DNA from: a virus
Length of the DNA stretch: 31,164 bases
Direction: 5' to 3' (one strand)
IMG/VR virus record: IMGVR_UViG_3300031509_000004
Coordinates: 1-31,164 of that record
Under the pieces are notes generated by a model. The model was not told the origin of the DNA. It worked only from the letters and a program-made list of their open reading frames with translations, and did no database searches. How positions within the stretch are numbered: position 1 is the stretch's first letter; every line of letters begins with the position of its first letter. Position numbers and translations under genes: made by a program. This document shows positions 1-31,164 of this stretch, piece after piece.

Positions 1-53
1 CAATGCCGAGCGCGGCGAAGGCTTCCGACAGGGCGCGCACGCGCTCGGCATTG
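1..53. repeat. 14-bp inverted repeat at the left end, probable fold-back artefact
   Basis: Bases 1-14 are the exact reverse complement of 40-53. Bases 1-9 are absent from the matching right-hand copy of this region, so they look like a copy-back or assembly artefact rather than genome sequence. Confidence 0.7.
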
Positions 54-2062
54 CGCGCCGCATCGGGCCCGGTCAGCGGCAGGGCGGCCAGCGCCGCCTC
101 GCGCTGGTCGGGAGGCAGGCGCGCGGCCTCGGCGCGCAGCCGCGCGATCTCGGCCGCCTGCTCGAGGTCGCGGTTGACGGCGGCCACCTGCTCTGGCCGC
201 AGCCCTGCCGCGCGGCCCTCCTCCTCCGTGATGGCCGGCGCCTGGCCGGTCGCCTGCGCTTCCACCGTCAGGTCGCGGATGCGCTCGGCCAGCGCCGCAT
301 GGCGCACCTGCACCCCGCGCGCTTCCAGGCTGCGCAGCATCTGCGCCGCCGCCTGCGGATCAGCGGCGAAGCCCGGCGTGCCGGGGGCGAACTGCGCGGC
401 GAGCTCGGCCAGCGCCGCCGGGTCCGTGGTGCTGCGGGCGATGCGGTCGGCGGCGAAGACCTCCATGCGCAGCCGCTCGCGCTCCAGCACCTCTGCCGGG
501 TCGAGCCCGGCGGCGGCGATCTCGGCCTCGGTCAGCCGGTGCACCGGCTGGCCGGAGACGCCGATGGCGGCGAGGTTCTCGGCGATGCGTCGGTTGAGGC
601 CGGCGCGCGCCTCGGCGCGGCCCTCGGCGGTCGCCTGCTGATCCGCCGCATGCAGGGCGCGCAGCCGGGCGGCGAGGCGCGCCACCTCGGCCGAGGGCAG
701 CGCCCCCGCCGCGCCGGCCGCCGGCAGCAGCGTGGCAAGGTAGTCCTGCGTCTCGCGCGGCAGCGGCCGGTCGCCGCGCGCGGCCTCGGCCACGCGGCCC
801 ATGCCGGCGTTGTAGGCGGCCAGCGCCTGGCCGAGGTCGCCGTTGAAGTGTTCGCGTAGCGCCGCCAGGTAGCGCGCCGCCCAGGGGATGGCGCGGGCCG
901 GATCGCGCAGCGCCTCCTCGGGCAGCGGCGGCACGCCCGGCAGGCCGGGGTCGCGCGCCGTGCTGGGCAGGATCTGCGCGGGGCCGACCGCGCCGGCGGG
1001 GCTCACGGCATCGGCGCGCCCGCCGCTTTCCAGGCCGATCAGCGCCAGCAGCAGCCCGGGCGGCAGGCCGTTGTCGCGCGCCGCCTGCTCGACGATCGGC
1101 CGCCACGCCTCCGGCACCCGCGCGGCCAGCGCCTCCGGCGTGGCGCGCATGCGCCCCTGCGCCGCCTGGCGGGCGGCGAAGCCCTCGCTGCCCGCGGCGC
1201 GGCGCTCGAACTCCGCGATCCAGCCGAGGCCGCCGCCCGCCTGCCGCCAGGCCGCGACCACCGCGGCCTCGGTGCGCGCCCGCTCGATCGCCTGCATCTG
1301 CTGGGCGATCTGCTGGGCGGAGAGCGCCCCGGCGCGCGAGGGGTCGGCCGGATACTGGCGGGTGCCGATGCGGAAGGCCTCGCGCGGCCCGAGCGCGATC
1401 AGCTCGGCCACCGCCTGGTCTTCCAGCACCGCCAGCGCGCGGGCCGCCTGCGGGTCCGTCACGGCCTGTGCCGCGGCGCGCTCGATGTCGGCGATGCGGC
1501 CGGGCAGCGCGGCCTGGAAGGTGGCCAGGGCGTCGTCGGCGACGCGCCGGCGCAGGGCTTCGCGCACCTGTTGCGCCACCGGCAGCGCCATGGCGTCGAA
1601 GCGCTGCGCGACCACCGGCCGGATGCGCTCGGGCAGGCCGGCAAGCAGGCTTTCGCGATACGCCTGCGCCTGGGCGTTGAAGGCATCGGGGTCGGCCGGA
1701 TGCGCCTCGGCCAGCTGCTGCAGCCGCTCCCGCGCCGTGATTTCCAGCCGCCGCGCCGCCGCGTCCACCGCCGCGCGGTTGAAGGCGGTGCGGTAGAGGG
1801 TGCCGCCGCCTTGCATCAGCGTGCCGGGCGCCGCCTCGCCGGCCCGCGTGCCGGCCTCCCAGGCGGCTTCCGCCGCCTCGCGGTCGGCGATCGCGCCGGT
1901 GGTGGCGGCGAGCTGCTCCAGCCTGCGCGCCAGAGTGGCGGAGGCGGCGGCATCGGCGGCCGGCACCTCGCCGGCGGCGGCAGGCTGCAGCACGCCCGGC
2001 CGCTCCTCGCGCTCCCATGTCGGCGCGCGCATGTCCATGCGGCGCAGCGGCGGCAGGCTCAT
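1..2062 (-). CDS. Internal virion (ejection) protein with lytic transglycosylase domain, N-terminal part
   Basis: This is the 5' two thirds of one gene that crosses the ends of the circle; its remainder is at 30032-31164. Joined through the terminal repeat it is 1020 codons (about 1019 aa) with no frame break. Residues ~317-430 form an SLT (lytic transglycosylase) domain: the catalytic Glu is ~E345 in GLESGG, followed by GPAQILPST (~360-368) and AYNAG (~416-420). The rest is long, Ala/Arg/Glu-rich and helical. In T7, gp16 carries such a domain and is injected to cut a local hole in peptidoglycan for the DNA channel; the same role is inferred here. The ATG at 2062 overlaps the stop of the gp14-like gene as ATGA. 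The last nine bases of the window end (1-9) do not match the other copy and should not be translated. Confidence 0.9.
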   Translation of the reverse strand, partial: MSLPPLRRMDMRAPTWEREERPGVLQPAAAGEVPAADAAASATLARRLEQLAATTGAIADREAAEAAWEAGTRAGEAAPGTLMQGGGTLYRTAFNRAAVDAAARRLEITARERLQQLAEAHPADPDAFNAQAQAYRESLLAGLPERIRPVVAQRFDAMALPVAQQVREALRRRVADDALATFQAALPGRIADIERAAAQAVTDPQAARALAVLEDQAVAELIALGPREAFRIGTRQYPADPSRAGALSAQQIAQQMQAIERARTEAAVVAAWRQAGGGLGWIAEFERRAAGSEGFAARQAAQGRMRATPEALAARVPEAWRPIVEQAARDNGLPPGLLLALIGLESGGRADAVSPAGAVGPAQILPSTARDPGLPGVPPLPEEALRDPARAIPWAARYLAALREHFNGDLGQALAAYNAGMGRVAEAARGDRPLPRETQDYLATLLPAAGAAGALPSAEVARLAARLRALHAADQQATAEGRAEARAGLNRRIAENLAAIGVSGQPVHRLTEAEIAAAGLDPAEVLERERLRMEVFAADRIARSTTDPAALAELAAQFAPGTPGFAADPQAAAQMLRSLEARGVQVRHAALAERIRDLTVEAQATGQAPAITEEEGRAAGLRPEQVAAVNRDLEQAAEIARLRAEAARLPPDQREAALAALPLTGPDAARNAERVRALSEAFAALGI
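10..135. repeat. 126-bp terminal direct repeat, left copy
   Basis: The sequence is identical to 31039-31164. Because a gene reads in frame across the joint, this is the overlap of a circular or circularly permuted molecule rather than two independent repeats. Confidence 0.95.
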
Positions 2063-2601
2063 CCGCGCTGGCCTCCGCCCGGCGGCGGCACCACCGTGCC
2101 CGGCTGGCGCGCCCACCAATCCGCCACGCCGCGGCCGGCGGTCGCGGCCGCGCCGAGCCAGCCGGCGGTGCTGGTCCAGCCGGCCTGGTCCGCGAGCAGC
2201 CGCACGCGCTGCTGCGTCCCCGCCGCGCCGATGCGCGCGCTGGCGGCGTCCAGCGCCGTGCTGGTGGCCATCACCTGCAGCTGCCGTTCGGCATCGCGCG
2301 CGGTTTGTTCCGCCACCGTCGCCGGCGTGCCGTCGTCCAGCACCAGGCCGCCGGCGGCGTAGCGTGCGTTCTGCGCGGCCAGCACGCGCAGCAGCTGCTC
2401 GCGCGTGTTCAGCGCCTCCATCTCGCCGCGCTGCTCGATGCTGCGGGCGGAGAGTTCCTGCTGCCGCGCCTGGATGCTGAGCAGCGCCGCCTGGTTGCGC
2501 ATGGCCCCGGCCTGCTGCTGCGCCTGCATCACCTGCAGCCCGGCCGACGCGATGCTGCCGAGCGCGGAGAGGGCGGTGGCGATGGTGGCGATCTCGGCCA
2601 T
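2059..2601 (-). CDS. Internal virion protein, T7 gp14-like
   Basis: This 180-aa protein has an N-terminal hydrophobic/amphipathic stretch (residues ~4-25, TALSALGSIASAGLQV) followed by a Gln/Ala/Arg-rich helical region containing NQAALLSIQARQQELSARS and an RDAERQLQVMATS segment. This is the pattern of T7 gp14-type internal core proteins, which are ejected first and form the outer-membrane pore. The position between tail tubular protein B and the SLT ejection protein matches T7 gene order. It starts 2 bp after the upstream stop, and its stop overlaps the next ATG (2062) as ATGA. The family call rests on composition and synteny rather than on a diagnostic motif. Confidence 0.8.
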   Translation of the reverse strand: MAEIATIATALSALGSIASAGLQVMQAQQQAGAMRNQAALLSIQARQQELSARSIEQRGEMEALNTREQLLRVLAAQNARYAAGGLVLDDGTPATVAEQTARDAERQLQVMATSTALDAASARIGAAGTQQRVRLLADQAGWTSTAGWLGAAATAGRGVADWWARQPGTVVPPPGGGQRG

Positions 2602-5274: not shown

Positions 5275-5550
5275 CTAGCCCTCCTGCCGCGGCGCGGCGC
5301 CGGGCGCGGCGTCGCGCGGCGCCGCCTTGCGGCGGCCGCGGATGCTGACACCTGGCCTGGCGGCGGGGCGCAGGCCCTGCGCCAGCGCCTCGGCCTCGGG
5401 CAGGAGCGCGCAGCCCGGAGGAGGCGAGTAAGGCGTGGCGCCATCCCAGACGATGGTGTTGACGATGGCGCCGCTGAGCACCAGCGCGTAGCGCTGCGGC
5501 GGCGGCGACGTCTCGGCCTCTGCCGGATGTGTGCTCTGCTGCCCGCCCAT
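5275..5550 (-). CDS. Small phage protein of the tail-appendage neighbour type
   Basis: This 91-aa protein has a central segment, RYALVLSGAIVNTIVWDGAT followed by PYSPPPGCALLP. Short proteins of this look (Y-x-V-x-x-G-x-V-x-N-x-I-x-W-D) are common beside tail-fibre or glycine-rich genes in proteobacterial phages; their function is not established. The C-terminal third is basic and Ala/Pro-rich and probably disordered. The gene overlaps the stop of the glycine-rich gene: the ATG at 5550 shares its A with the TGA, and a GTG one codon upstream (5553) would give a GTGA overlap. An AGGA sequence about 8-11 bases upstream fits either start. Confidence 0.65.
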   Translation of the reverse strand: MGGQQSTHPAEAETSPPPQRYALVLSGAIVNTIVWDGATPYSPPPGCALLPEAEALAQGLRPAARPGVSIRGRRKAAPRDAAPGAAPRQEG

Positions 5551-6491
5551 CACCCGTAGATCCTGATGCGCACGAAGCCGTCTCCGCCATTGCCGCCCTG
5601 GCCGCCATTGCCGCCGACCGCAGAGCCGCCGCCCGCGCCGCCGCTGCCGTGTATGCCGTTGCCGCCACGGCCGCCCGGGCCCGCGGTGTTGTTGCCACCG
5701 CCGGAGGCGCCGAGCTGCATGCCGCCGATCTGCTGCGCGTCGGCGCCGTCGCCGCCGGTGCCGCCGGTGCCGCCCGGAAGCGGCGTGCCGCCGCTGGTCA
5801 CGCCGCCGGCGCCGCCGGCGCGCGCGGCGGGCGTGACGGGCATGCCGCCGCCGCCGGCGCCGCCCGTGGCGCCGCCGAGCGGCGGAACGGCCGTGTTGGC
5901 GTTGCCGGGATTGGCGCTCACCCCCCTGGCCCCGCTGGCGGCCGCGCGCGGGAAGGCGGCGACTGTCCCGTTGGCCGAACCGGCGCTGCCGCCGACGCCG
6001 CCGGCGCTGCCGTTGGTGCTGCCCGTTGCGTTGCCGCCTGGTGTGTTGCCAAGCCCGGCCGATCCGCCAGCACCGGAATTTTCAGAAATCACCCCCCCCG
6101 CGCCGCCGCCGCCCGGCTGGGCGCGCGCCAGCACCTGCGCGCCGAGCAGCACCTCGGTGATGCCGCCCTGGCCGCCATCGCCGCCGGCGGTGTTGTCGGC
6201 GGTGGCGCCGGCGCCGCCAGGGCCGCCCGCGCCGATGGTGATGGTGAGCGGTCCGGTGAGGAGGGAGGCCGCGAACAGCGCCTCGGCCCAGCCGCCGCCG
6301 CCGCCGCCGGCGCCGCCGCTGCAGGCCGTGCCGGAGGCGACGCGCGCGCCGCCGCCGCCGCCACCACCCGCGCCGCGCGCCTCGATCTCGAACCAGCGCG
6401 CCCAGGGATACTGCGCCGGGTCGAAGGTGCCGCTCGCGGTGAACTCGACGAGCTCGACGCGCTGGGCCGCGCGGCGCCGCCAGACGCTCAT
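5550..6491 (-). CDS. Glycine-rich virion appendage protein
   Basis: This 313-aa protein opens with about 40 normal residues (RVELVEFTASGTFDPAQYPW, then ARWFEIEARGA). It then becomes almost pure Gly/Ala/Asn/Thr/Ser with GGXGG repeats, and ends in GDGFVRIRIYG. Phage glycine-rich domain proteins have this layout: short beta strands at both ends of a polyglycine-helix-like bundle, normally part of tail fibres or other surface appendages. Here it lies among head/decoration genes and just upstream of the holin, not next to the tailspike. The GGC/GCC-rich DNA makes this the most slippage- and recombination-prone gene in the genome. Start and previous stop overlap as ATGA. Confidence 0.75.
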   Translation of the reverse strand: MSVWRRRAAQRVELVEFTASGTFDPAQYPWARWFEIEARGAGGGGGGGARVASGTACSGGAGGGGGGWAEALFAASLLTGPLTITIGAGGPGGAGATADNTAGGDGGQGGITEVLLGAQVLARAQPGGGGAGGVISENSGAGGSAGLGNTPGGNATGSTNGSAGGVGGSAGSANGTVAAFPRAAASGARGVSANPGNANTAVPPLGGATGGAGGGGMPVTPAARAGGAGGVTSGGTPLPGGTGGTGGDGADAQQIGGMQLGASGGGNNTAGPGGRGGNGIHGSGGAGGGSAVGGNGGQGGNGGDGFVRIRIYG

Positions 6492-6805
6492 TGGCTGAGC
6501 CTCACGCTGACCGAGCCGGAGGCGATGGCCAGAACCTGCGCGCGATACAGCACGCCCGGCTCGGGCTCCTCGCAGACCTCGGACAGCGGCGCCACGATCG
6601 CCACCGGCCCGCCCTGCAGCGTGCAGTCGTGCCAGGTGGCGCCGCCGTCGAAGCTGCGCTGCAGCCGCGCCGACAGCCCGCCGAAGCTGCCGGAGACGGT
6701 CAGGTTGAACGGCCCCTGCAGCAGGATGGCGGGCGAGGCGCCCGGCGCCGCGGTGCTCCATTGGAGCACCCCGGTCGCCATCTCGCGGCCGTTGAAGACG
6801 CCCAT
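6488..6805 (-). CDS. Small beta-sandwich-like structural protein
   Basis: This 105-aa protein is rich in predicted beta strands (GPFNLTVSGSFGGLSARLQR, then SFDGGATWHDCT). The S-x-D-G-G-x-T-W phrase is typical of small phage surface or decoration domains and also of sialidase-like repeats. No catalytic motif is visible. It lies two genes after the capsid protein, five bases after the previous stop, and overlaps the glycine-rich gene by ATGA. A head decoration or head-fibre base role is inferred only from its position and fold. Confidence 0.65.
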   Translation of the reverse strand: MGVFNGREMATGVLQWSTAAPGASPAILLQGPFNLTVSGSFGGLSARLQRSFDGGATWHDCTLQGGPVAIVAPLSEVCEEPEPGVLYRAQVLAIASGSVSVRLSQ

Positions 6806-22189: not shown

Positions 22190-24559
22190 TCAGACTGGCG
22201 GCCGCGTGAGTGTGATCTGCAGCGTAAGCTCCGGCGCGTCGATCGCCGAGCCGGTGTGGTTGAACAGCCGCACCCGCACCGTGTCCGTCGCCACCACATG
22301 CGCCAGAGGCAGCAGGATGGTGGCAGGCGACACTCCCACTGCCACGTGATCGCCCGGCCGCGCGCCGGACACCGTGATATCGGTATGCGTCGAGCTGTTG
22401 GCGCCGATCGAAGGCGGATCCCATGTCGCCTGATGCGCCTGCGTGCGGCCGCCCCAGGGCCGCGCGCCGCCGTAGAGCAGATGCGGGGTGACCAGCGGCG
22501 AGGCATACACCCGCAGCGCCTTCAGCACCGCCGAGGCAGAGCCGCCGCGCACGCCGATGAACACGATGGCGCAGGACGGATGCAGCGTGACCCGCTGCAG
22601 CGCGTTCACCGGCAACCCGCCCGTCAGCGTGTCCAGGTTGACGTTCATCTCCCACCAATAGCTCGGCGCCCCTGCAAACACCGCATTGGCGTTGCTCCAC
22701 AGGACCGGGGCCGCCGCACCCAGCACGTTCTCCGCGCTGTCGAACTGCATCACCACGCCGCGCAGCTCGCTGCCCTCCGCGCCGAGGAACAGCTCCTTCG
22801 GCCCTTCATAGGCAGCAAGGGTGGTGCGCAGGTCGAACACGAAGCCAAGCGCCCGGGACGTCGGCACCACAATGCTTTCGGCGTTCAGAGTGAAGCCGGT
22901 GGCGCCGCCGAACAGCAGCGTATCCAGCGTGGTCGGGCTGCCGTTGGGGTTGCTCGAGGCGATGGCCATCCGCTCGAAGCCGACACCGCCTGCGACGGTG
23001 CGCACGTCGCGGTAGGCCAGGCGGCGCAGGTTGCCAGCCTCGGCCAGCAGCCACGGGCTGGACTGCGCGGCCGCCGCCTGATGCAGCGGCACGACGCTGC
23101 CACCCGCCCGCGTCGCGCTGGCCGGGTAATCCACCGCGCAGCCGAGAAAGCCATAGGTGCCGACATAGGCCACCTCGTAGACGGCATCGTTTTGCGCCGC
23201 CGTGTGCCGCGCCACGAAGCGCGAGCAGTTCTCCATGCGCACGCCATAGGCGCGCAGCGCGCGGCCGTTCACCTCCACCAGAAACGGGATGGCATCCACA
23301 GTGCCCGGCGTGCCCTGGCGGTTCAGCTCGAAGGCGGGGCCGAGGAAGACATGCGCATTGTGCAGGTCATAGGCCCCGGGTGCGGCCGACAGCCGCACCC
23401 CGAAGCGCGACAGCGTCGGATGCGTGGTCGAGGCATTCGCGAAATGCCCGCCGATGTAGCGCACGGAGTTGTTCCAGGCGTCCGGTCCCGGCTGCGAACA
23501 CCGGATGTCGAGGCCATAGCGGCAATCCACGATCCGGCCCAAGACCAGTGTCGTGTCCTCGAACCCCGCCGGCTGTCCGGAGATGCCGCTACCGAGCGTG
23601 CGGATGCCGACGGTGAACCCCTCGACGCGGCGATGCAGCACGTAGCACGCATCAAGGTTGCGCAGCACGATGCCGACATCGCCCTCGTTGGTCCAGCTGG
23701 CCAGGGACGACCGACGCACATCCAGCCCGACCAGCGCCTTCGCCTGCATGCGCTGGGTGGCGTTGCCGATCACTAGCGCCGCCTGCCCGGCCGGGCCGTT
23801 GTAGACCAGCGCGCCCTCCATCCGCACTCCGGCCACCGCGGCGGCCACCGTCACGGTGCCGGTCGTCCGCCAGGTGCCCTCCGGCAGCCACCACAGCAGC
23901 CCCTGCGCCGCCGCATAGTCGGCAGCCGCCTGCAGCGGCACCGTGTCATCGGCGATGCCGTCGCCCACACCGCCCCAGTGGCGCGGATTGGCAGCCCGCA
24001 GCAGCTCGGCCAGCAGCCGCGGCGTGGTGCCGCCGAGCGGCGTGACCGAGGTGCTGCTGAGGTCGGTGCCGGAGACCGCCACCGGCGCGCCGGCGGCGTC
24101 GAAGCCCAGCAGTTTCGAGGCGCGCTGCGCGACGGACGGCAGCTCCGCCAGCGCCGCCCCGTCGGTGATCGGCAGCCGGACGGAGCGTGAAAGGTCGCGC
24201 GCCAGCTGCTGCGCGGCGATCCACCAGCGCGCGAACTCGGCATTCAGCGCCGCCGCCCGCAGCGCCTGGCCGTCCGTCCATTCCGAGCTGCGCGACACCG
24301 GCTGCGCCGAGACCACCACGATCAGATCGCCCGCCAGCGCCGGCGCCGTCAGCGTCACCGTGAAGCCGCCCGGCGCGCCGATGCCGGACAGCGTGTAATC
24401 GCCCGGATTGGTCAGGGTCACGGTCACGCCGGCGCGCAACCGCACCACCTGCACGTCCGCCGCGGCGAACACGGGGAAGGTGACGGCGAACACCGTCTCG
24501 CCGCCGGTGCATTCGAAGCGGCGCAGCCGGGTATCCTCCGGCACGAGGCTGATGGTCAT
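22190..24559 (-). CDS. Tailspike with T7 anchor and pectate-lyase-like beta helix
   Basis: This 789-aa protein has an N-terminal adaptor (residues ~1-130) of T7 gp17 type: GGETVFAVTFPVF, a beta-rich region, then EWTDGQALRAAALNAEFARW and the trailing amphipathic helix. After a linker, HWGGVGDGIADDTVPLQAAA (from ~195) is the classic start of a pectate-lyase-3 right-handed beta helix with WLPEGTW following. The remainder is repetitive beta strand. It should bind, and probably cut, a host surface polysaccharide. The start overlaps the previous stop by ATGA; longer upstream reading is rejected. It is the last gene before attP. Confidence 0.85.
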   Translation of the reverse strand: MTISLVPEDTRLRRFECTGGETVFAVTFPVFAAADVQVVRLRAGVTVTLTNPGDYTLSGIGAPGGFTVTLTAPALAGDLIVVVSAQPVSRSSEWTDGQALRAAALNAEFARWWIAAQQLARDLSRSVRLPITDGAALAELPSVAQRASKLLGFDAAGAPVAVSGTDLSSTSVTPLGGTTPRLLAELLRAANPRHWGGVGDGIADDTVPLQAAADYAAAQGLLWWLPEGTWRTTGTVTVAAAVAGVRMEGALVYNGPAGQAALVIGNATQRMQAKALVGLDVRRSSLASWTNEGDVGIVLRNLDACYVLHRRVEGFTVGIRTLGSGISGQPAGFEDTTLVLGRIVDCRYGLDIRCSQPGPDAWNNSVRYIGGHFANASTTHPTLSRFGVRLSAAPGAYDLHNAHVFLGPAFELNRQGTPGTVDAIPFLVEVNGRALRAYGVRMENCSRFVARHTAAQNDAVYEVAYVGTYGFLGCAVDYPASATRAGGSVVPLHQAAAAQSSPWLLAEAGNLRRLAYRDVRTVAGGVGFERMAIASSNPNGSPTTLDTLLFGGATGFTLNAESIVVPTSRALGFVFDLRTTLAAYEGPKELFLGAEGSELRGVVMQFDSAENVLGAAAPVLWSNANAVFAGAPSYWWEMNVNLDTLTGGLPVNALQRVTLHPSCAIVFIGVRGGSASAVLKALRVYASPLVTPHLLYGGARPWGGRTQAHQATWDPPSIGANSSTHTDITVSGARPGDHVAVGVSPATILLPLAHVVATDTVRVRLFNHTGSAIDAPELTLQITLTRPPV

Positions 24560-27018
24560 GGCCTGCCTCCCATCGCGGCGTTGAGGGATGGCGCGCGGCG
24601 CGGCGCGCCCTCGCCCGGCGCCCACCAGAACTCCTGCTCGTATTCCCGCATGGCGCGGCGCTCGAGCTGGCGGAAGCGCCGCCCGGCCTCGGGGTCGGCC
24701 CACCATTGCAGCCGGTCCCACAGCAGCCGGTCCATGGCGAGCCGCGAATACCACAGCGAGCTGCCCGGCGTGTTGAGCCGCATGAACCGCATCAGATCGG
24801 TACCGAGCGCGCGCTCGCGCCGCTCATCGTCCAGCGCCTGGATGTTGAGGCCGGCGATCCTCGCGATGTCGGAGGCAAGCCCGCCCATCGGGCCGCCTGC
24901 CATCTGCGCGTAGAAGTCCTGGTCGGTGCGCGCCACCGCCGAATAGAGGAAGTCGCCCAGGATCCCCGCGCCGCCGCCCTGCGCGAAGGCGGCCAGCCAG
25001 AAGCGGTGGTCCTCCATGTTGCGCGGGTCGCGGCCCTTGGCGATCTCCTTGAGCTGCATGGCGAAGGCGCCCATCAGCGTCATGCCGATGCCGTAGCTCG
25101 CGAGATAGGCCGCCTTGCCGCGCAGCCCTTCCGCGTTCAGCCCGCGGCCGATGTGCATCAGCATCACGGTGACGGGGAAGGACTTGAACTGCATGGCGCT
25201 GCGGACGAACTCGCCGATGAAGGTGCCGGGCCTGGTCTGCCCCACCATCAGCGCGCGCTCGGCCGCGCCGGGCTCGGGCACCGCGAAGCGCGCCTCGGTC
25301 TGCACGAACTCGAGCAGGCGTGTTGCCGCTTCCAGCCGGGCGCGCCCTTCCGGCGTGGCCAAGTCCGCCGCCCGCGCCACCGCCTCGGGCGAAAGGAAGC
25401 GCCAGCCGCCTTCCGTCACCACGCCGGAAGCGCGCAGCATGTCCCACTCCGCCGGGCCGATGCCGTAGCGCTCCATGGCCCGGCGCAGCGGCTCCTCGAT
25501 GGCCTGGAACTCCCGCCCGGCGCGGTCGGCGAGCGCGCCCAGGAACTCCATGCCGATCGCCCAGCGCGCCGCCTGGGTGTGCGCCGTCAGCCCGGAGGCA
25601 CGCAGGACGAAATCCGCCGCACGGCTGCCAAGGCCCGTGCCGATCACATCCGCCTGGTTGCGCATGGCGCCGGCGGCGCGCTGCGCCCAGGCCTCGGCCA
25701 GCAGGCCCGCACGCACGGCAATCCTGCGATCCTCGGCATTGGCCGGGTTGAGCAGGCGCAGATAGTCGCGCATCCAGCCCACGGATGGCAGCCCGTTCCA
25801 GGCCGCCACCTGGCGCATGGTGGCGAAGTCGCTCACGCTGGAGAGCAGCGCCGAGCCGAGGCGCGACGCCGTCAGCCACCCCCGCAGCTCGCGGAACAGG
25901 GTGGCCGCCCATTCGTTGACCGGCGTGCTGGCCAGCCCCGAGACATGCGCCCAGGTGCTCTCGATCCGCCAGGCTTCGGCGCGCGCGCGGTCCGGCCGGT
26001 CGGCCAGGCGGCGCACCGCCTCATCGCGCAGGTAGCGGAGCATCCAATCCGGGTTGGGCCCCAGCACCTCCAGCATGGCGATGTCGCGCGCCATCCCGTC
26101 AATGTGCCCGTTCAGCAGGTCGTAGAGGTTGCGGTTGCCGACGCCGAAGCGCTCATTGGCTTCAAGCCAGGCCTCGGCCGAGGTCCACTGGAAGGCGCGC
26201 ATCTCGGCCCGCCGGTTGGCGAGCGCCCCAAGGCCGCGCTGCGCGCCGGGGGTGATGTCCACAAGCCCCTCGGTGCGGATGCGCTCATAGGCGTTGGCGA
26301 GGATCTCGGCCCGCCGCAGCGGGTTCACCTCGAGCCCCGTGTCTGGGTCGCGGATGGACAGCCGCCCCTGCGCGTGCTGGTCCTCCATCCAGCGCAGCCA
26401 TTCCTCGCGCCCGGCGGCGGCGACCTTCTCGCGGTCCCAGGCCTGCGGCAGGCGCCAGTCCTCGCGCCGCGGCAGGGCGCCGCCGGCGGCGTTGAAGCGC
26501 TCGACCAGCCCATCCGTCACGCGCCCCCAGGCCTCGGCCAGCGCGCGCAGGGCCGGGTCCTTCGGCGCCTCGCCATAAAGGGCGCGGACGAAGCCCGCGA
26601 GCCCCTCCTCGTCCCGCATCAGTCCGAGCATCCGCGACCGGAAGCGGTCCAGCACATCCACCAGCCCCGCATGGGCCAGGCCGCGGATGGCCCGCGCGCG
26701 GGCTTCCACGTTGGAATAGGTCGCCTTGCCCGAGAGGTCGCGCGCCAGAAGCGCGCGCACACCGGCGGCGAAGCCGTCCGGGTGGGCCTCGGCCAGGTCC
26801 ACATTGCGCGCGGCGGCGAGGATGCGCAGCGCGGTCTGGCGCTGCTTGGTCTCGGCGGCGCGGGTGATCTCCTCGGCCGCCTTGCGCATCGCCTCGGCTT
26901 CCGACAGGCCCTTGCCCAGCAGCTCCTCGACGCGCGCATTCACCCGCCCGGCCATGGCTTCGCTGATGCGCCCGGCCGCCACGGCATCGGCCACGCATTT
27001 GCGGTGGCGGGTGGTCAT
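24556..27018 (-). CDS. Large internal virion (ejection) protein
   Basis: This 820-aa protein is mainly helical, with a basic N-terminus (MTTRHRKCVADAVAAGRISE) and one hydrophobic stretch near residues ~640-670 (YLASYGIGMTLMGAFAMQLK) preceded by RSAMQFKSFPVTVMLMHIGR. Proteins of this size and layout follow polyvalent proteins in many podoviruses and are taken to be part of the ejected core that spans the cell envelope. No enzyme motif is recognised. It overlaps both neighbours by ATGA. By position it fills the place of T7 gp16, although the transglycosylase domain here is on the first ejection protein. Confidence 0.72.
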   Translation of the reverse strand: MTTRHRKCVADAVAAGRISEAMAGRVNARVEELLGKGLSEAEAMRKAAEEITRAAETKQRQTALRILAAARNVDLAEAHPDGFAAGVRALLARDLSGKATYSNVEARARAIRGLAHAGLVDVLDRFRSRMLGLMRDEEGLAGFVRALYGEAPKDPALRALAEAWGRVTDGLVERFNAAGGALPRREDWRLPQAWDREKVAAAGREEWLRWMEDQHAQGRLSIRDPDTGLEVNPLRRAEILANAYERIRTEGLVDITPGAQRGLGALANRRAEMRAFQWTSAEAWLEANERFGVGNRNLYDLLNGHIDGMARDIAMLEVLGPNPDWMLRYLRDEAVRRLADRPDRARAEAWRIESTWAHVSGLASTPVNEWAATLFRELRGWLTASRLGSALLSSVSDFATMRQVAAWNGLPSVGWMRDYLRLLNPANAEDRRIAVRAGLLAEAWAQRAAGAMRNQADVIGTGLGSRAADFVLRASGLTAHTQAARWAIGMEFLGALADRAGREFQAIEEPLRRAMERYGIGPAEWDMLRASGVVTEGGWRFLSPEAVARAADLATPEGRARLEAATRLLEFVQTEARFAVPEPGAAERALMVGQTRPGTFIGEFVRSAMQFKSFPVTVMLMHIGRGLNAEGLRGKAAYLASYGIGMTLMGAFAMQLKEIAKGRDPRNMEDHRFWLAAFAQGGGAGILGDFLYSAVARTDQDFYAQMAGGPMGGLASDIARIAGLNIQALDDERRERALGTDLMRFMRLNTPGSSLWYSRLAMDRLLWDRLQWWADPEAGRRFRQLERRAMREYEQEFWWAPGEGAPRRAPSLNAAMGGRP

Positions 27019-30000
27019 GCCGCCCCTCCGATCAGGCAGGCGGCCGCGGCGGCGGCCTCGGCGGCCTCGGCCTCGGCCTCGTCCAGCAGCTCGCGCGCGC
27101 CGCGCTGCGCCGTCTCCTCGGGCACCGGCAGGTCGCGCTCGGCGGCGATGCGCTGCGCTTCCAGGAGCTCGGCCGAGCGGGTGGCAGGGTCGGCGGCGAG
27201 GCGGCGGGCTTCGGCATCGGCGGCCAGCAGCCGCGCGGCCTGCGGCTCGGCGGCTGGCGGCGGCGCAAATGCCGGGTTTTCGCGGGCGGCCCCCTCCTCC
27301 GCTCGCCCGGCGGCGGCCAGCATCTCGGCAGGCGACGGCCGCGCCTCGGGCAGCAGCATGGGCCCGGCATCGGCGGCGCGCGCGCGCTCGACATAGCCGC
27401 GCAGCGCCTCCGTCAGCCGCACTTCGGGCTTGATGCGGCGCGCAAGGTCGCCCTCGGGGAACATCGCCTGCAGCATGGCCAGCCCCTGAGGCGTCATGGC
27501 CGGCCGCTCGAAATCCGCCTGCAGCACCAGATCGGCGAGGCTCACGCGCCGCTGCTGCGCCTCGGCGATGGCCTGCACCGCCTCGGCCAGCGCGGCGGTG
27601 GCATCGTATTCGGCCGGGATGCGCCCGGCGGCGGCATCGGCGCGCAGCGCCGCCCAGTCGCCCGCCAGGTTGCGCAGCGCCGCGGCCAGGCCGCGCATGC
27701 CCTCCGTCTCGCCGGCGATCAGCCTCGCCGCCACCGGCCCCAGCGCGTCGCCATAGGCGGCCGAGAGCAGCGCGCGGGTGACGCGCTGGATCAAATCCGG
27801 CGTCGGCGTGCCGTCGGCGGCGAGCAAACCGCTGCGCTCCTCTGGCGTCAGCCGCGCCAGGAAGCGGCGCAGGAACTCGCGATTGGCCGCCTGGTCCACC
27901 GTGCCGCCGCGCCAGAAGGGCAGGGCTGCGCGCGCGGCCTCGGCGTCGCGCGCCGCCATCTCGGTGGCCGTCTCGGCGGCCGTGCCGCGCAGATTGGCCT
28001 CGCGCACGAAGGCCGCGCGCTCGGCCGGCGTCATCTGGGTGATCCGCGCCGAGACCAGCACGGGCTCCTCGATGCCCGTCAGGTCGAAGCCCAGGCGTTC
28101 CAGCATGGCGAGATAAGCCTGGCGCTGGGCGGCCAGCGCCGGGTCGCGGTGGATGAGCGCGAGCGCCGCCACCCGGCCATTGCCGGACTCCACCACCCGG
28201 TCGGGGCCGATGATGGGCGCGCCGGCACCCGCCTCGACATTCGGCGCCAGGCGCTCGGGGATGAGGCGCGCGGCGATGGCGCGCACCTGGTCCTGGCTGG
28301 GGGCGGCGGCGCGATCGCGCGGCTGCAGCCCTTCGGCGTGCGGATAGGCCGGGTTGGGCCGGCCGTCCGGGTCGTGGCTCGGGATCAGTCGGCGGAGCGA
28401 GACCACGCGCGGCTGCACCAGCACGGCGCGGCCGGCGGGGGTGTAGGCGTTGAACTCCGTCAGGTTCGGCGATAGGGTTTGCGCGGCGGCTCCTGGTCCC
28501 CGTTTCGGACGTAGAGGTGGGGGCGCGCCCGGCGCCGGGCTCGATCCTGCCGTTCCAGGACCGCCACCCTTGCGGGCAAAGTAGGCCGTCTTCAGCGCCA
28601 GCAGTCCGCGCGCGGCGCGCACTGTCTCCACGATCACCAGGGTTCCGTCTGGCAGGTCTTTCTCGGCCCGCAGCACGGGCAGCCCCTGGTGCGTGGCGCC
28701 GTCGTGCCGGAACCTGTCCGCCTCACGCAGCCAGCGCGGCAGGTTGGCCAGGTCCTCCAGCGTCAGCGGCCGCACGCGGATATCGTCGCCTTCCGGCCCG
28801 TGCCGCTGCCACACATGGCGCAGCTCATCGCGCTGCATGACATGGACCAGCCCGCGCACATCCAGCCCCGTCTGCGTCCGGATGCGTGCGGCCACCTCGT
28901 CCGGAAGCGCGCCGAAGCCCAGCGCGAAGCTGCCCGCGCCGGGTGGCGCGTCCAGCGCCGCCGCCACCTGGGCCCGCACCGTGTCGGGCGCGGCCCCATC
29001 CAGGTCTCGAATTGGCACGCGCCGCCACGGCGGCGGCAGCTCGGGCACCGGCGGCGCCTCGGGCGTCTCCACCCGGCGTATGCCGGCCGCCAGCGCCGCC
29101 TCATGCGCCGGCACCAGTTCCGGCGCGCCGGGGGCGGCGGCCTCCTCCAGCGCGTCGGTGCGCGCGAGTGTGGCGGCATCCTGCGCCGCCACCCGCGCCG
29201 GGTCGGCCGGCGAGAGGCGCGCGGCCAGCCGCTCGGCCCCGACGATCGCCGCGCGCAAGCCCCCGCCGATGACGGCGCCGCCCAGCGCCGCCATGCCGAT
29301 CTGCTCAAGGCTGTCGTCCGGCAGGCCAAGCGACTGCCGGTAGGGCCCGGCGCGGGTCTCCACCACCGCCTGGGTGGCCCCTGCCACCGCGCCCTCGATC
29401 AGCGCGGTCCGCCCCACCTGCGCCAGCACGCCGCCGGCCATGCGCCCGGCGCCCAAGGGCAGGGTCAGCACCTGGATCGGGTCGGCGAAGATGCCCGCCA
29501 TGCCGCCCAGGAAGCCGCCGAACCCGCCGCCGAGGCCTTCCGCCGCCGCCGCTTCGGCCGCCGCGTTCTGCGCCCGCCGGCGCGCCATGGCGGCCACCTC
29601 GTGGCTGTAGAGGTAGCGATCGGCCTGGTCCGGCCGCTCCTCGCGCAGCCGCGTCACCGCCTGGTCCCAGGCCAGTTCGCGGCGGCGGCGCTCCTCGCGC
29701 TCGGCCTCGCGCCGGTCGAAGCGCCCTCCGGGCAGCAGATCAAGCGGCGTGGGCGGAACCACGCGCTGCAAGGCGCGGCCCAGATCGGGCAGGAAGGCGC
29801 CGGTCCAGTCGCCCGTCTCGTAGGGGTTCTCCACCGCCGCCCCGGCCTCGCGCAGCGCCGCCGCGGCGTCGTCGAAAGCGCGGCGCAGGTTGCGCTCCTC
29901 CGAGGCGAAGTTGCCGGTGGCGAGCTGCGCCTCGAGGTTGAGGGCGAACCGCTCGGCATCCGTGCGCGGCGTGGTGGGCAGCGGCTGCCAGGCCAGCGGC

Positions 30001-30035
30001 CGCGGTTCCTGCCCCAGCGCCAGCACGCCGCTCAT
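27015..30035 (-). CDS. Polyvalent ejection protein with PBECR nuclease and DdrB-like ParB domains
   Basis: This 1006-aa protein has several parts: a helical N-terminus; Gly-rich hydrophobic segments (~166-260, LGGGFGGFLGGMAGIFADPI); and a PBECR-type domain at ~370-490 (VMQRDELRHVWQRHG, then PLTLEDLANLPRWLREAD, then ALKTAYF). A DdrB-like ParB domain follows at ~540-690 (VVSLRRLIPSHD, GAPIIGPDRVVESGNGRVAA). A long Ala/Glu helical tail ends it. PBECR domains are barnase/EndoU/colicin-like RNases and DdrB-type ParB domains are predicted nucleases or nucleotide-binding modules; both are known from phage and mobile-element polyvalent proteins thought to act inside the recipient. The ATG at 30035 (ATGA with upstream stop) is preferred to a GTG at 30047. 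Confidence 0.82.
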   Translation of the reverse strand: MSGVLALGQEPRPLAWQPLPTTPRTDAERFALNLEAQLATGNFASEERNLRRAFDDAAAALREAGAAVENPYETGDWTGAFLPDLGRALQRVVPPTPLDLLPGGRFDRREAEREERRRRELAWDQAVTRLREERPDQADRYLYSHEVAAMARRRAQNAAAEAAAAEGLGGGFGGFLGGMAGIFADPIQVLTLPLGAGRMAGGVLAQVGRTALIEGAVAGATQAVVETRAGPYRQSLGLPDDSLEQIGMAALGGAVIGGGLRAAIVGAERLAARLSPADPARVAAQDAATLARTDALEEAAAPGAPELVPAHEAALAAGIRRVETPEAPPVPELPPPWRRVPIRDLDGAAPDTVRAQVAAALDAPPGAGSFALGFGALPDEVAARIRTQTGLDVRGLVHVMQRDELRHVWQRHGPEGDDIRVRPLTLEDLANLPRWLREADRFRHDGATHQGLPVLRAEKDLPDGTLVIVETVRAARGLLALKTAYFARKGGGPGTAGSSPAPGAPPPLRPKRGPGAAAQTLSPNLTEFNAYTPAGRAVLVQPRVVSLRRLIPSHDPDGRPNPAYPHAEGLQPRDRAAAPSQDQVRAIAARLIPERLAPNVEAGAGAPIIGPDRVVESGNGRVAALALIHRDPALAAQRQAYLAMLERLGFDLTGIEEPVLVSARITQMTPAERAAFVREANLRGTAAETATEMAARDAEAARAALPFWRGGTVDQAANREFLRRFLARLTPEERSGLLAADGTPTPDLIQRVTRALLSAAYGDALGPVAARLIAGETEGMRGLAAALRNLAGDWAALRADAAAGRIPAEYDATAALAEAVQAIAEAQQRRVSLADLVLQADFERPAMTPQGLAMLQAMFPEGDLARRIKPEVRLTEALRGYVERARAADAGPMLLPEARPSPAEMLAAAGRAEEGAARENPAFAPPPAAEPQAARLLAADAEARRLAADPATRSAELLEAQRIAAERDLPVPEETAQRGARELLDEAEAEAAEAAAAAACLIGGAA

Positions 30036-31164
30036 GGCTCGTTCCACCCTTCGATCGGCCGAACCGCGCTCTGCCCCGGGTTGCCGCGCGCGCGCTGCCG
30101 CGTGCCGGGCTGAGCGTGTGTCGGCTCGGCGCCGTTCAGGTCAAGCACGAAGGCCTGATCGGGCGCCGCGCCCGGCCGCACGTCCAGCACCTCATGCCGC
30201 CCGAAGCGCAGCAGGTAGCGGCCGGGTCCGACCGCCTGCAGGGTGAAGCCGCCGCGCGCCAGCATCTCGGGCGTGATGGGCCGGCCGTCCGCCGCCCTGG
30301 CGCCGTCCAGCCGCTCCGGCGGCAGGGCGGCCAGCAGGTCCTGGAACTGCCGTTCGCCCATGCCCGGCGGCAGCGGCACGCGCTGCCCGCCATAGGTCGT
30401 GACCGGGATGATCCGCTCCAGCACCTCGGCGTATTCGCCGCGGCCGATCGGCGTGGTCAGCCGCCCTTCGGCCGCCCGGCGCGCCGCCACCGCCGCCAGC
30501 GTGGCTGCCTTCACATCCGCCAGCACATCCGGCCGGGCGGCGAGCGCGTCCCGCACATGCGCCTCCACCGCCGCGTCCACGTTGTTGCGCGTCGCGTCCG
30601 GCACGGCGTTGTCGCGCAGCACGAAGGCGCCGCGCAGGATCAGCCGCGCGGTGGCCTGGTCCTGCCCGCTCAGCGCCGCCGCCACGGCGATGGCGCGGCG
30701 CCGGTCGTCTCTCCGGTCGCCTTCGGGGCGCCACTCGGCCGCCAGGCGCTGCACCCCGGCCGGGCCGACCGCCTGGTTCAGCGTGACCAGCGCGGCCCAG
30801 GCGCCGTCCAGGTCCACGCTGTTGGCGATGCGCTGGAAGATCGCCTCGGCGAAGGGCTTGGGCAGGTCGCGCTGCTGCCCGGCCGGGATGCCCAGCACCT
30901 CCTGCTCGGCGCGCAGGCGTCGGACGAACTCCGGCAGCGCCGCCCAGTCTCCGCCGGACACCCGCTGGCCCAGCTCGCGCAGCGCCTCGCTGCCGGCCAT
31001 GGCATAGGCGGCGGCATCCTGCGCCACCGCCCGGTCGCGCGCGGCGAAGGCTTCCGACAGGGCGCGCACGCGCTCGGCATTGCGCGCCGCATCGGGCCCG
31101 GTCAGCGGCAGGGCGGCCAGCGCCGCCTCGCGCTGGTCGGGAGGCAGGCGCGCGGCCTCGGCGC
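30032..31164 (-). CDS. Internal virion (ejection) protein with lytic transglycosylase domain, C-terminal part
   Basis: This is the 3' third of the SLT-domain protein that starts at 2062. Base 31039 equals base 10, and the reading frame is preserved because 2053 + 1007 nt = 3060 nt. This part shows no second enzyme domain by eye: it is mainly Ala/Arg-rich predicted helix, ending in a short beta-like segment (FTLQAVGPGRYLLRFGRHEV) and a disordered tail. A GTG at 31069 opens an ORF inside the window, but that is an artefact of where the circle was cut. The stop at 30032 overlaps the ATG of the next gene (30035) as ATGA, so the two ejection proteins are translationally coupled. Confidence 0.88.
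   Translation of the reverse strand, partial: AEAARLPPDQREAALAALPLTGPDAARNAERVRALSEAFAARDRAVAQDAAAYAMAGSEALRELGQRVSGGDWAALPEFVRRLRAEQEVLGIPAGQQRDLPKPFAEAIFQRIANSVDLDGAWAALVTLNQAVGPAGVQRLAAEWRPEGDRRDDRRRAIAVAAALSGQDQATARLILRGAFVLRDNAVPDATRNNVDAAVEAHVRDALAARPDVLADVKAATLAAVAARRAAEGRLTTPIGRGEYAEVLERIIPVTTYGGQRVPLPPGMGERQFQDLLAALPPERLDGARAADGRPITPEMLARGGFTLQAVGPGRYLLRFGRHEVLDVRPGAAPDQAFVLDLNGAEPTHAQPGTRQRARGNPGQSAVRPIEGWNEP
31039..31164. repeat. 126-bp terminal direct repeat, right copy
   Basis: The sequence is identical to 10-135. Base 31038 (c) is the first that disagrees with the left end (base 9, a), so the right copy shows the true upstream sequence. Confidence 0.95.

Follow-up and report, generated by a model that had tools for sequence, protein, structure and literature searches.

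The window analysed here comprises all 31,164 nucleotides of an IMG/VR virus record (IMGVR_UViG_3300031509_000004, positions 1 to 31,164), and the subject of this report is a gene on its minus strand, at 27015–30047, which holds the place of gp16 in an ejection-protein operon like that of phage epsilon15. With a probability of about 0.6, we consider its product to be a gp16-position ejection protein that serves as a carrier with exchangeable cargo, and that would be ejected, docked on gp17, and active in RNA cutting and DNA binding within the cell. The protein is made up of an N-terminal carrier that includes a hydrophobic stretch, a cassette containing a PBECR3 domain, a ddrB-ParB module, and a short acidic tail with the sole cysteine. 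It is plausible that the protein is packaged in the virion and delivered into the cell, and that it acts as a nuclease. That such domains occur in injected phage proteins, the polyvalent proteins, is already known; new here are the polymorphic, exchangeable cassette in this slot and the facing cysteines of gp16 and gp17.

The gene and its product

The open reading frame (ORF) at 27015–30047 specifies 1010 amino acids from a GTG start. The ATG at 30035 (1006 amino acids) is the likelier start codon; it is preceded by AGGGTGGA, and the same start is used in close relatives. From this ATG the gene overlaps each of its neighbours by 4 bp. A preliminary description of this DNA had given the coordinates correctly as 27015–30035, and the coding strand is minus. 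Residues are numbered throughout from the GTG at 30047. The features of the gene are as follows.

27015..30047, minus: gp16-position ejection protein, ORF of 1010 residues (likely ATG at 30035, 1006 residues)
29088..30035, minus: N-terminal carrier region, residues 5–320, common to 64 of 68 non-redundant gp16-slot proteins (one profile iteration)
29220..29522, minus: Gly/Ala-rich hydrophobic stretch, residues 176–276, a candidate membrane-interacting segment (hydropathy)
28455..29090, minus: exchange cassette, residues about 320–531 (DNA comparison with close relatives)
28572..28892, minus: PBECR3 domain, residues 386–492, BECR/RelE-like ribonuclease (RNase) fold (Pfam and model)
28800–28817 and 28587–28589, minus: putative active site, H411 and H416, and T487, respectively (aligned relatives)
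28044..28433, minus: ddrB-ParB domain, residues 539–668, with boxes Q575-P-R577 and G622-N-G-R625 (28173–28184)
27468..28043, minus: conserved extension of the ddrB module, for the most part helical, residues 669–860, including E683-A-N685-L-R687
27018..27095, minus: C-terminal tail, residues 985–1010, with C1004 (27036–27038), the sole cysteine of the protein

Position in the ejection operon

The downstream gene (24556–27018) specifies a full-length homolog of the epsilon15/phiV10 gp17 family (phrog_684, E 1e-177), which identifies the slot under study as that of epsilon15 gp16. Homologs covering at least 80% of gp17 are present in 91 phage records, including phiV10, SPN1S, Yersinia YeP and Pseudomonas Shamal. 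The order gp14-gp15(SLT)-gp16-gp17, with overlapping genes, is the same as in epsilon15 and phiV10. The preliminary description had located the gene within an ejection module, and it does lie inside the ejection-protein operon, between the transglycosylase in the gp15 position and the gp17 homolog. The label "T7-type" given to this module was dropped for epsilon15-type on the strength of the gp17 homolog and the gene order. The transglycosylase is encoded in a separate protein, unlike that of T7, where it forms the N-terminus of gp16. Residues 121–408 of the gp16-slot protein show a partial match to phrog_342, "internal virion protein with endolysin domain" (E 8e-10). The neighbouring genes are listed below.

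24556..27018, minus: gp17-like pilot protein, 820 residues; 4-bp ATGA overlap with the gp16-slot gene; sole cysteine C8 (26995–26997)
30032..31038, minus: C-terminal part of the gp15-position lytic transglycosylase (whole protein 1019 residues, no cysteine)
10..2062, minus: N-terminal part of the same transglycosylase, across the circular join; SLT domain, E 1e-21
2059..2601, minus: gp14-like internal virion protein, 180 residues, no cysteine (phrog_418, E 3e-9; Pfam T7_gp14 below cut-off)

The exchangeable cassette

In the closest relatives, whose gp17 proteins are 72–79% identical to that of the window, the DNA of the gp16-slot gene is 69–79% identical up to gene nucleotide 832–957 and again from nucleotide 1594. 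Between these flanks, at residues about 320–531, there is no DNA similarity to the close relatives. The 3' edge at nucleotide 1594, just ahead of the ddrB-ParB domain, recurs in L009, L083, L011 and L012. The cassette holds a PBECR3 domain in the window, L083, L090 and L013, and displays a PBECR1-like match below the cut-off in L009 and L011; in L010, L012 and L092 no domain was recognised in it. The PBECR1-like cassettes gave no significant match to PBECR3 (hhalign, shallow profiles). The model of the L009 cassette was poor (pLDDT, predicted local distance difference test, of 58) and its fold search uninformative; the idea that one RNase has replaced another is therefore based on a pair of Pfam matches, both below the cut-off. 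An alignment restricted to PBECR3 proved too divergent for scanning the collection, and a scan with the single protein revealed only one distant relative.

The slot also varies among more distant relatives. A Zeta toxin occupies it in 19 of the 42 members scanned, and a local profile detects this domain in 21 of 68 non-redundant proteins; the slot's other contents are SLT plus ddrB-ParB, or PBECR1. A ParB-like DGHQR motif is present in 44 of the 68, and a ParB-type box, either ddrB or this motif, in 56. Ejection proteins were already known to be mosaic; a literature search found no description of the carrier-and-cargo layout of the gp16 slot, nor of a Zeta toxin in an ejection protein. Within the literature searched, PBECR is mentioned in only two papers.

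Several observations on this locus in other phages may be added. The Zeta toxin domain (PF06414, up to E 6e-36) lies within the gp16-slot protein of L014, L024, L062, L089 and others, and thus in many phages of marine and alphaproteobacterial origin. The gp16-slot proteins of L079:4379-8797 and L085:4544-8992, of about 1475 residues, show a weak GNAT acetyltransferase match below the cut-off. The gp17 proteins of L083:9001-12003 and L011:9001-11949 carry an in-frame insert of 172–178 residues after the position of window gp17 residue 553; the inserts match no Pfam family and, as a lead only, their "GLAHI" helix resembles the PBECR1-like cassettes (the model is poor). L118 seemed to have a gp15-gp16 fusion and L009 an N-terminal extension; both were ruled out, the upstream frame in each case being an open non-coding frame of high-GC DNA.

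The PBECR3 domain

Residues 386–492 match Pfam PF18812 (PBECR3; E 4e-9, 36.7 bits, profile positions 8–109 of 115) above the curated cut-off of 30 bits. An AlphaFold model of residues 345–860, built from 46 aligned sequences (mean pLDDT 89), was compared with known structures using VIA-align 2. The BrnT RNase toxin (3u97) aligns with residues 399–493 (model 55–149) at Z 6.9 and a root-mean-square deviation of 2.7 over 75/77 residues, and several RelE-family toxins match the same residues at Z 4–5. The modelled domain possesses the N-terminal helix and four-stranded sheet of the BECR fold. The PBECR-type domain of the preliminary description is thus borne out by profile and fold alike, and both motifs quoted there are present in the gene.

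Most PBECR families have a histidine in the first helix and a serine or threonine near the C-terminus (Iyer et al. 2017, PMC5512222). In the window the putative active-site residues H411 and H416 sit in "LRHVWQRHG" and T487 in "LALKTAYF", all intact, and their agreement with the site described for PBECR supports the RNase reading. The second histidine is retained in nearly all aligned relatives. The metal-independent RNase activity of PBECR domains is itself a prediction (PMC5512222), and the PBECR3 domain of the window is likewise predicted to cut RNA.

Several results weigh against this function. Foldseek alone gave no significant match to the model, and structural Z values of 5–8 are moderate. 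L013 has D in place of the serine/threonine, L108 and L118 have N, and PBECR3 may therefore be inactive in some relatives. Finally, no immunity gene adjoins the gp16-slot gene. This speaks against an RNase of broad toxicity, except one that stays latent before ejection; the enzyme would thus be either specific or kept inactive up to that point. Elsewhere, a PBECR3 match together with ddrB-ParB was observed in a 3290-residue open frame (L152:3244-13113), a far larger polyvalent protein.

The ddrB-ParB domain

Residues 539–668 match Pfam PF18763 (ddrB-ParB; E 6e-24, 84.8 bits, curated cut-off 27.6 bits), and DdrB-type families of PHROGs cover residues 534–846. In the VIA-align 2 comparison, residues 531–692 (model 187–348) align with Noc (7ng0, Z 8.2) and with the ParB of C. 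crescentus (7bm8, Z 7.6). Conserved in more than 90% of the 46 sequences are N565, Q575-P-R577, R579, GAP611 and VVESGNGR625; the ParB boxes are thus intact, and R625 of the GNGR box is the conserved active-site arginine of the ParB/Srx fold. By eye, three short boxes follow in the same order in host ParB (QPR, GERR, ENLQR) and here (QPR, GNGR, EANLR); hhalign, with shallow profiles, detected no significant similarity between ddrB-ParB and host ParB. The DdrB-like ParB domain had likewise been recognised in the preliminary description, which staked both assignments against a lack of profile matches or a coiled coil alone; what was found were Pfam matches together with modelled BECR- and ParB-type folds. 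Judged by the nearest structures, nucleotide-gated binding of DNA is at least as likely a function of the ParB domain as nuclease activity.

Iyer et al. 2017 considered a non-specific DNase directed at the DNA of the host or of rivals; this is a very unlikely identity for the ddrB-ParB module. Other ParB/Srx domains are reported to have nuclease activity (summary in PMC5512222), but the same authors prefer nucleoside triphosphate sensing, and the nearest solved structures are CTP-binding clamps. An ejected enzyme of this kind would moreover endanger the phage's own incoming DNA, and ddrB of P1 is dispensable for plaque formation (PMC10695390).

The main rival explanation assigns both domains to the ejection machine itself, in a structural or regulatory capacity: the ParB-like module would be a nucleotide-gated clamp that grips the entering DNA on the cytoplasmic side, and PBECR3 would be RNA-binding or an inactive relic. 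The ParB-type box is far commoner among gp16-slot proteins than any RNase domain, which suggests a core function. The ParB and Noc CTPase domains as nearest folds, the report of T7 gp16-C as a cytoplasmic DNA-binding part (PMC8954989) and the loss of the serine/threonine from some PBECR3 copies all point the same way. The PBECR3 of the window, however, retains H411, H416 and T487, and the exchange or absence of this domain in close relatives is a better fit to an accessory effector. We regard this explanation as unlikely.

Facing cysteines of gp16 and gp17

Cysteines were counted in 68 non-redundant phages, the gp16 proteins of which contain 88 cysteines in 70,200 residues and the gp17 proteins 69 in 56,697; L093 was excluded, its upstream ORF being a DUF927 protein rather than gp16. 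Every gp16 (68/68) has a cysteine at most 10 residues from its end, the only one of the protein in 63 cases, and every gp17 (68/68) has one at residues 4–30, which is the only one in 67. The conserved cysteine is the sole invariant position of the gp16 C-terminus and likewise of the gp17 N-terminus; the gp16 tail is acidic ahead of it, while the gp17 head is basic. In epsilon15 the two are C629 of 634 in gp16 and C5 in gp17. No cysteine is found in gp15 at 83 of 86 loci. Composition does not explain this pattern, since several cysteines occur in each phage's other virion proteins. A literature search found no ejection-protein cysteine pair.

Distances between gp16 tails co-vary most with N-terminal alignment segments of gp17, the top 6 of 72 segments all falling in columns 1–99 of 815; conversely, the gp16 segment with which the gp17 head co-varies most is the last one. 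Linkage of neighbouring DNA was checked as a cause at the gp15/gp16 junction, which has no such signal. The co-variation of the two ends would be consistent with docking or a disulfide. Against this stands the small size of the effect (partial r 0.2–0.3, without a formal P value). As a separate observation, the gp14-type protein starts with Met-Cys in L195, L196, L003, L006 and L008 (gp14 of T7, epsilon15, phiV10, Piluca and TPWB-05), and the gp14-like protein of the window has no cysteine.

Proposed role in infection

In the carrier-and-cargo reading, the gp16-slot protein would be packaged next to gp15, the transglycosylase, and gp17, the pilot protein, and ejected before or together with the DNA. 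In support of this reading, a processed DdrB is reported to be a component of the P1 head (PMC5512222). Its tail would dock, perhaps as a disulfide, onto the basic N-terminus of gp17 that holds the sole cysteine of that protein. In the cytoplasm, the ParB-type domain would bind nucleotide and the incoming DNA, and early in infection, within minutes, PBECR3 would cut RNA: mRNA of host or phage, tRNA or CRISPR RNA. The targets suggested in the preliminary description, host defence or competing elements, are one of several possibilities proposed by Iyer et al. 2017 (PMC5512222). The rapid turnover of the cassette, we propose, reflects the variability of the host targets against which it is directed. 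Its presence in 56 of 68 proteins suggests that the ParB-type box is central to DNA entry, and that the RNase-type and toxin-type domains are accessory cargo.

More tentatively, epsilon15-type podoviruses in general might possess a protein-delivery train in which gp16 is the standard carrier of exchangeable effectors (RNase-fold, Zeta-toxin, ParB-type, transglycosylase), hitched to gp17 by a unique cysteine pair, with the other ejected proteins nearly free of cysteine. The layout of gp16 bears on two questions of podovirus ejection, the order and coupling of the ejected proteins and the delivery of enzymes besides the channel; both become testable with a cargo slot that can be recognised and a single conserved cysteine on each of the facing ends. 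The cargo can be predicted across many phages from the gene preceding gp17.

Genome context

The ends of the window share 126 identical bp (10–135 and 31039–31164, with 9 unmatched bases at the left end), and it closes to a circle of 31,029 bp, the gp15-position transglycosylase gene crossing the join. The collection lists no completeness value for this record, although the circle closes. An ORF for a very glycine-rich, repetitive protein (5550–6761, minus strand) lies between the capsid and tail genes. The phage encodes an integrase, and its prophage relatives reside in Rubritepida, Roseomonas, Roseococcus, Neoroseomonas and other Alphaproteobacteria; we take it to be a temperate podovirus of the epsilon15 type whose host is a high-GC alphaproteobacterium, probably one of the Acetobacteraceae.

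The integrase and these prophages would also suit a protein that serves the lysogen, being expressed from the prophage, with its RNase or ParB domain acting on superinfecting phages and with no delivery in the virion, a role raised for captured polyvalent proteins by Iyer et al. 2017 (PMC5512222). The gene, however, lies inside the late operon with its 4-bp overlaps to virion genes on each side (from the ATG at 30035), and the protein has the carrier region and C-terminal tail of an ejection protein. Such a function is highly improbable.

Comparison with known systems

The window resembles epsilon15 and phiV10 (Uetakevirus) in gene order, in gp17 homology (about 32–34%), and in the single C-terminal cysteine of gp16 and the single N-terminal cysteine of gp17. 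The gp16 proteins of those phages have 600–634 residues, that of phiV10 showing no significant Pfam domain, whereas the window protein has about 1000 with PBECR3 and ddrB-ParB. Sequence searches found no solved structure for gp16 or gp17. Alcaligenes phage Piluca and Acinetobacter phages MD-2021a and TPWB-05 possess ddrB-ParB in the same slot, adjoining a gp17 homolog, but in these phages a transglycosylase-like domain fills the place that PBECR3 takes in the window; the transglycosylase of the window is in gp15. In contrast to the epsilon15-type gp16 and gp17, T7 gp15/gp16 and P22 gp7/gp20/gp16 contain no cysteine at all.

Residues 399–493 share their fold with the BrnT/RelE ribonuclease toxins at an identity of about 10–16%; unlike these toxins, the PBECR3 of the gp16 slot has no antitoxin gene and is embedded in an ejection protein. 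The N-terminal CTPase-clamp domains of ParB and Noc are similar to residues 531–692 in fold and in the order of the boxes, but the GERR box reads GNGR here and ddrB-ParB has an extra helical insert.

Polyvalent proteins are the closest parallel. The occurrence of both domain types in them, stated in the preliminary description, agrees with the combination described in PMC5512222: Helicobacter jhp1044 has several PBECR domains and DdrB-ParB, and P1 DdrB is another such protein (Iyer et al. 2017). In the window, too, at least two disparate domains stand in one polypeptide encoded among virion genes, and the protein is a new member of this group. It shares with them PBECR and a DdrB-like ParB in one large protein, as well as mosaic domain exchange; unlike them, it has no metallopeptidase domain by Pfam. 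It differs further in being an epsilon15-type gp16 ejection protein, the cargo of which is flanked by a conserved carrier and a conserved tail.

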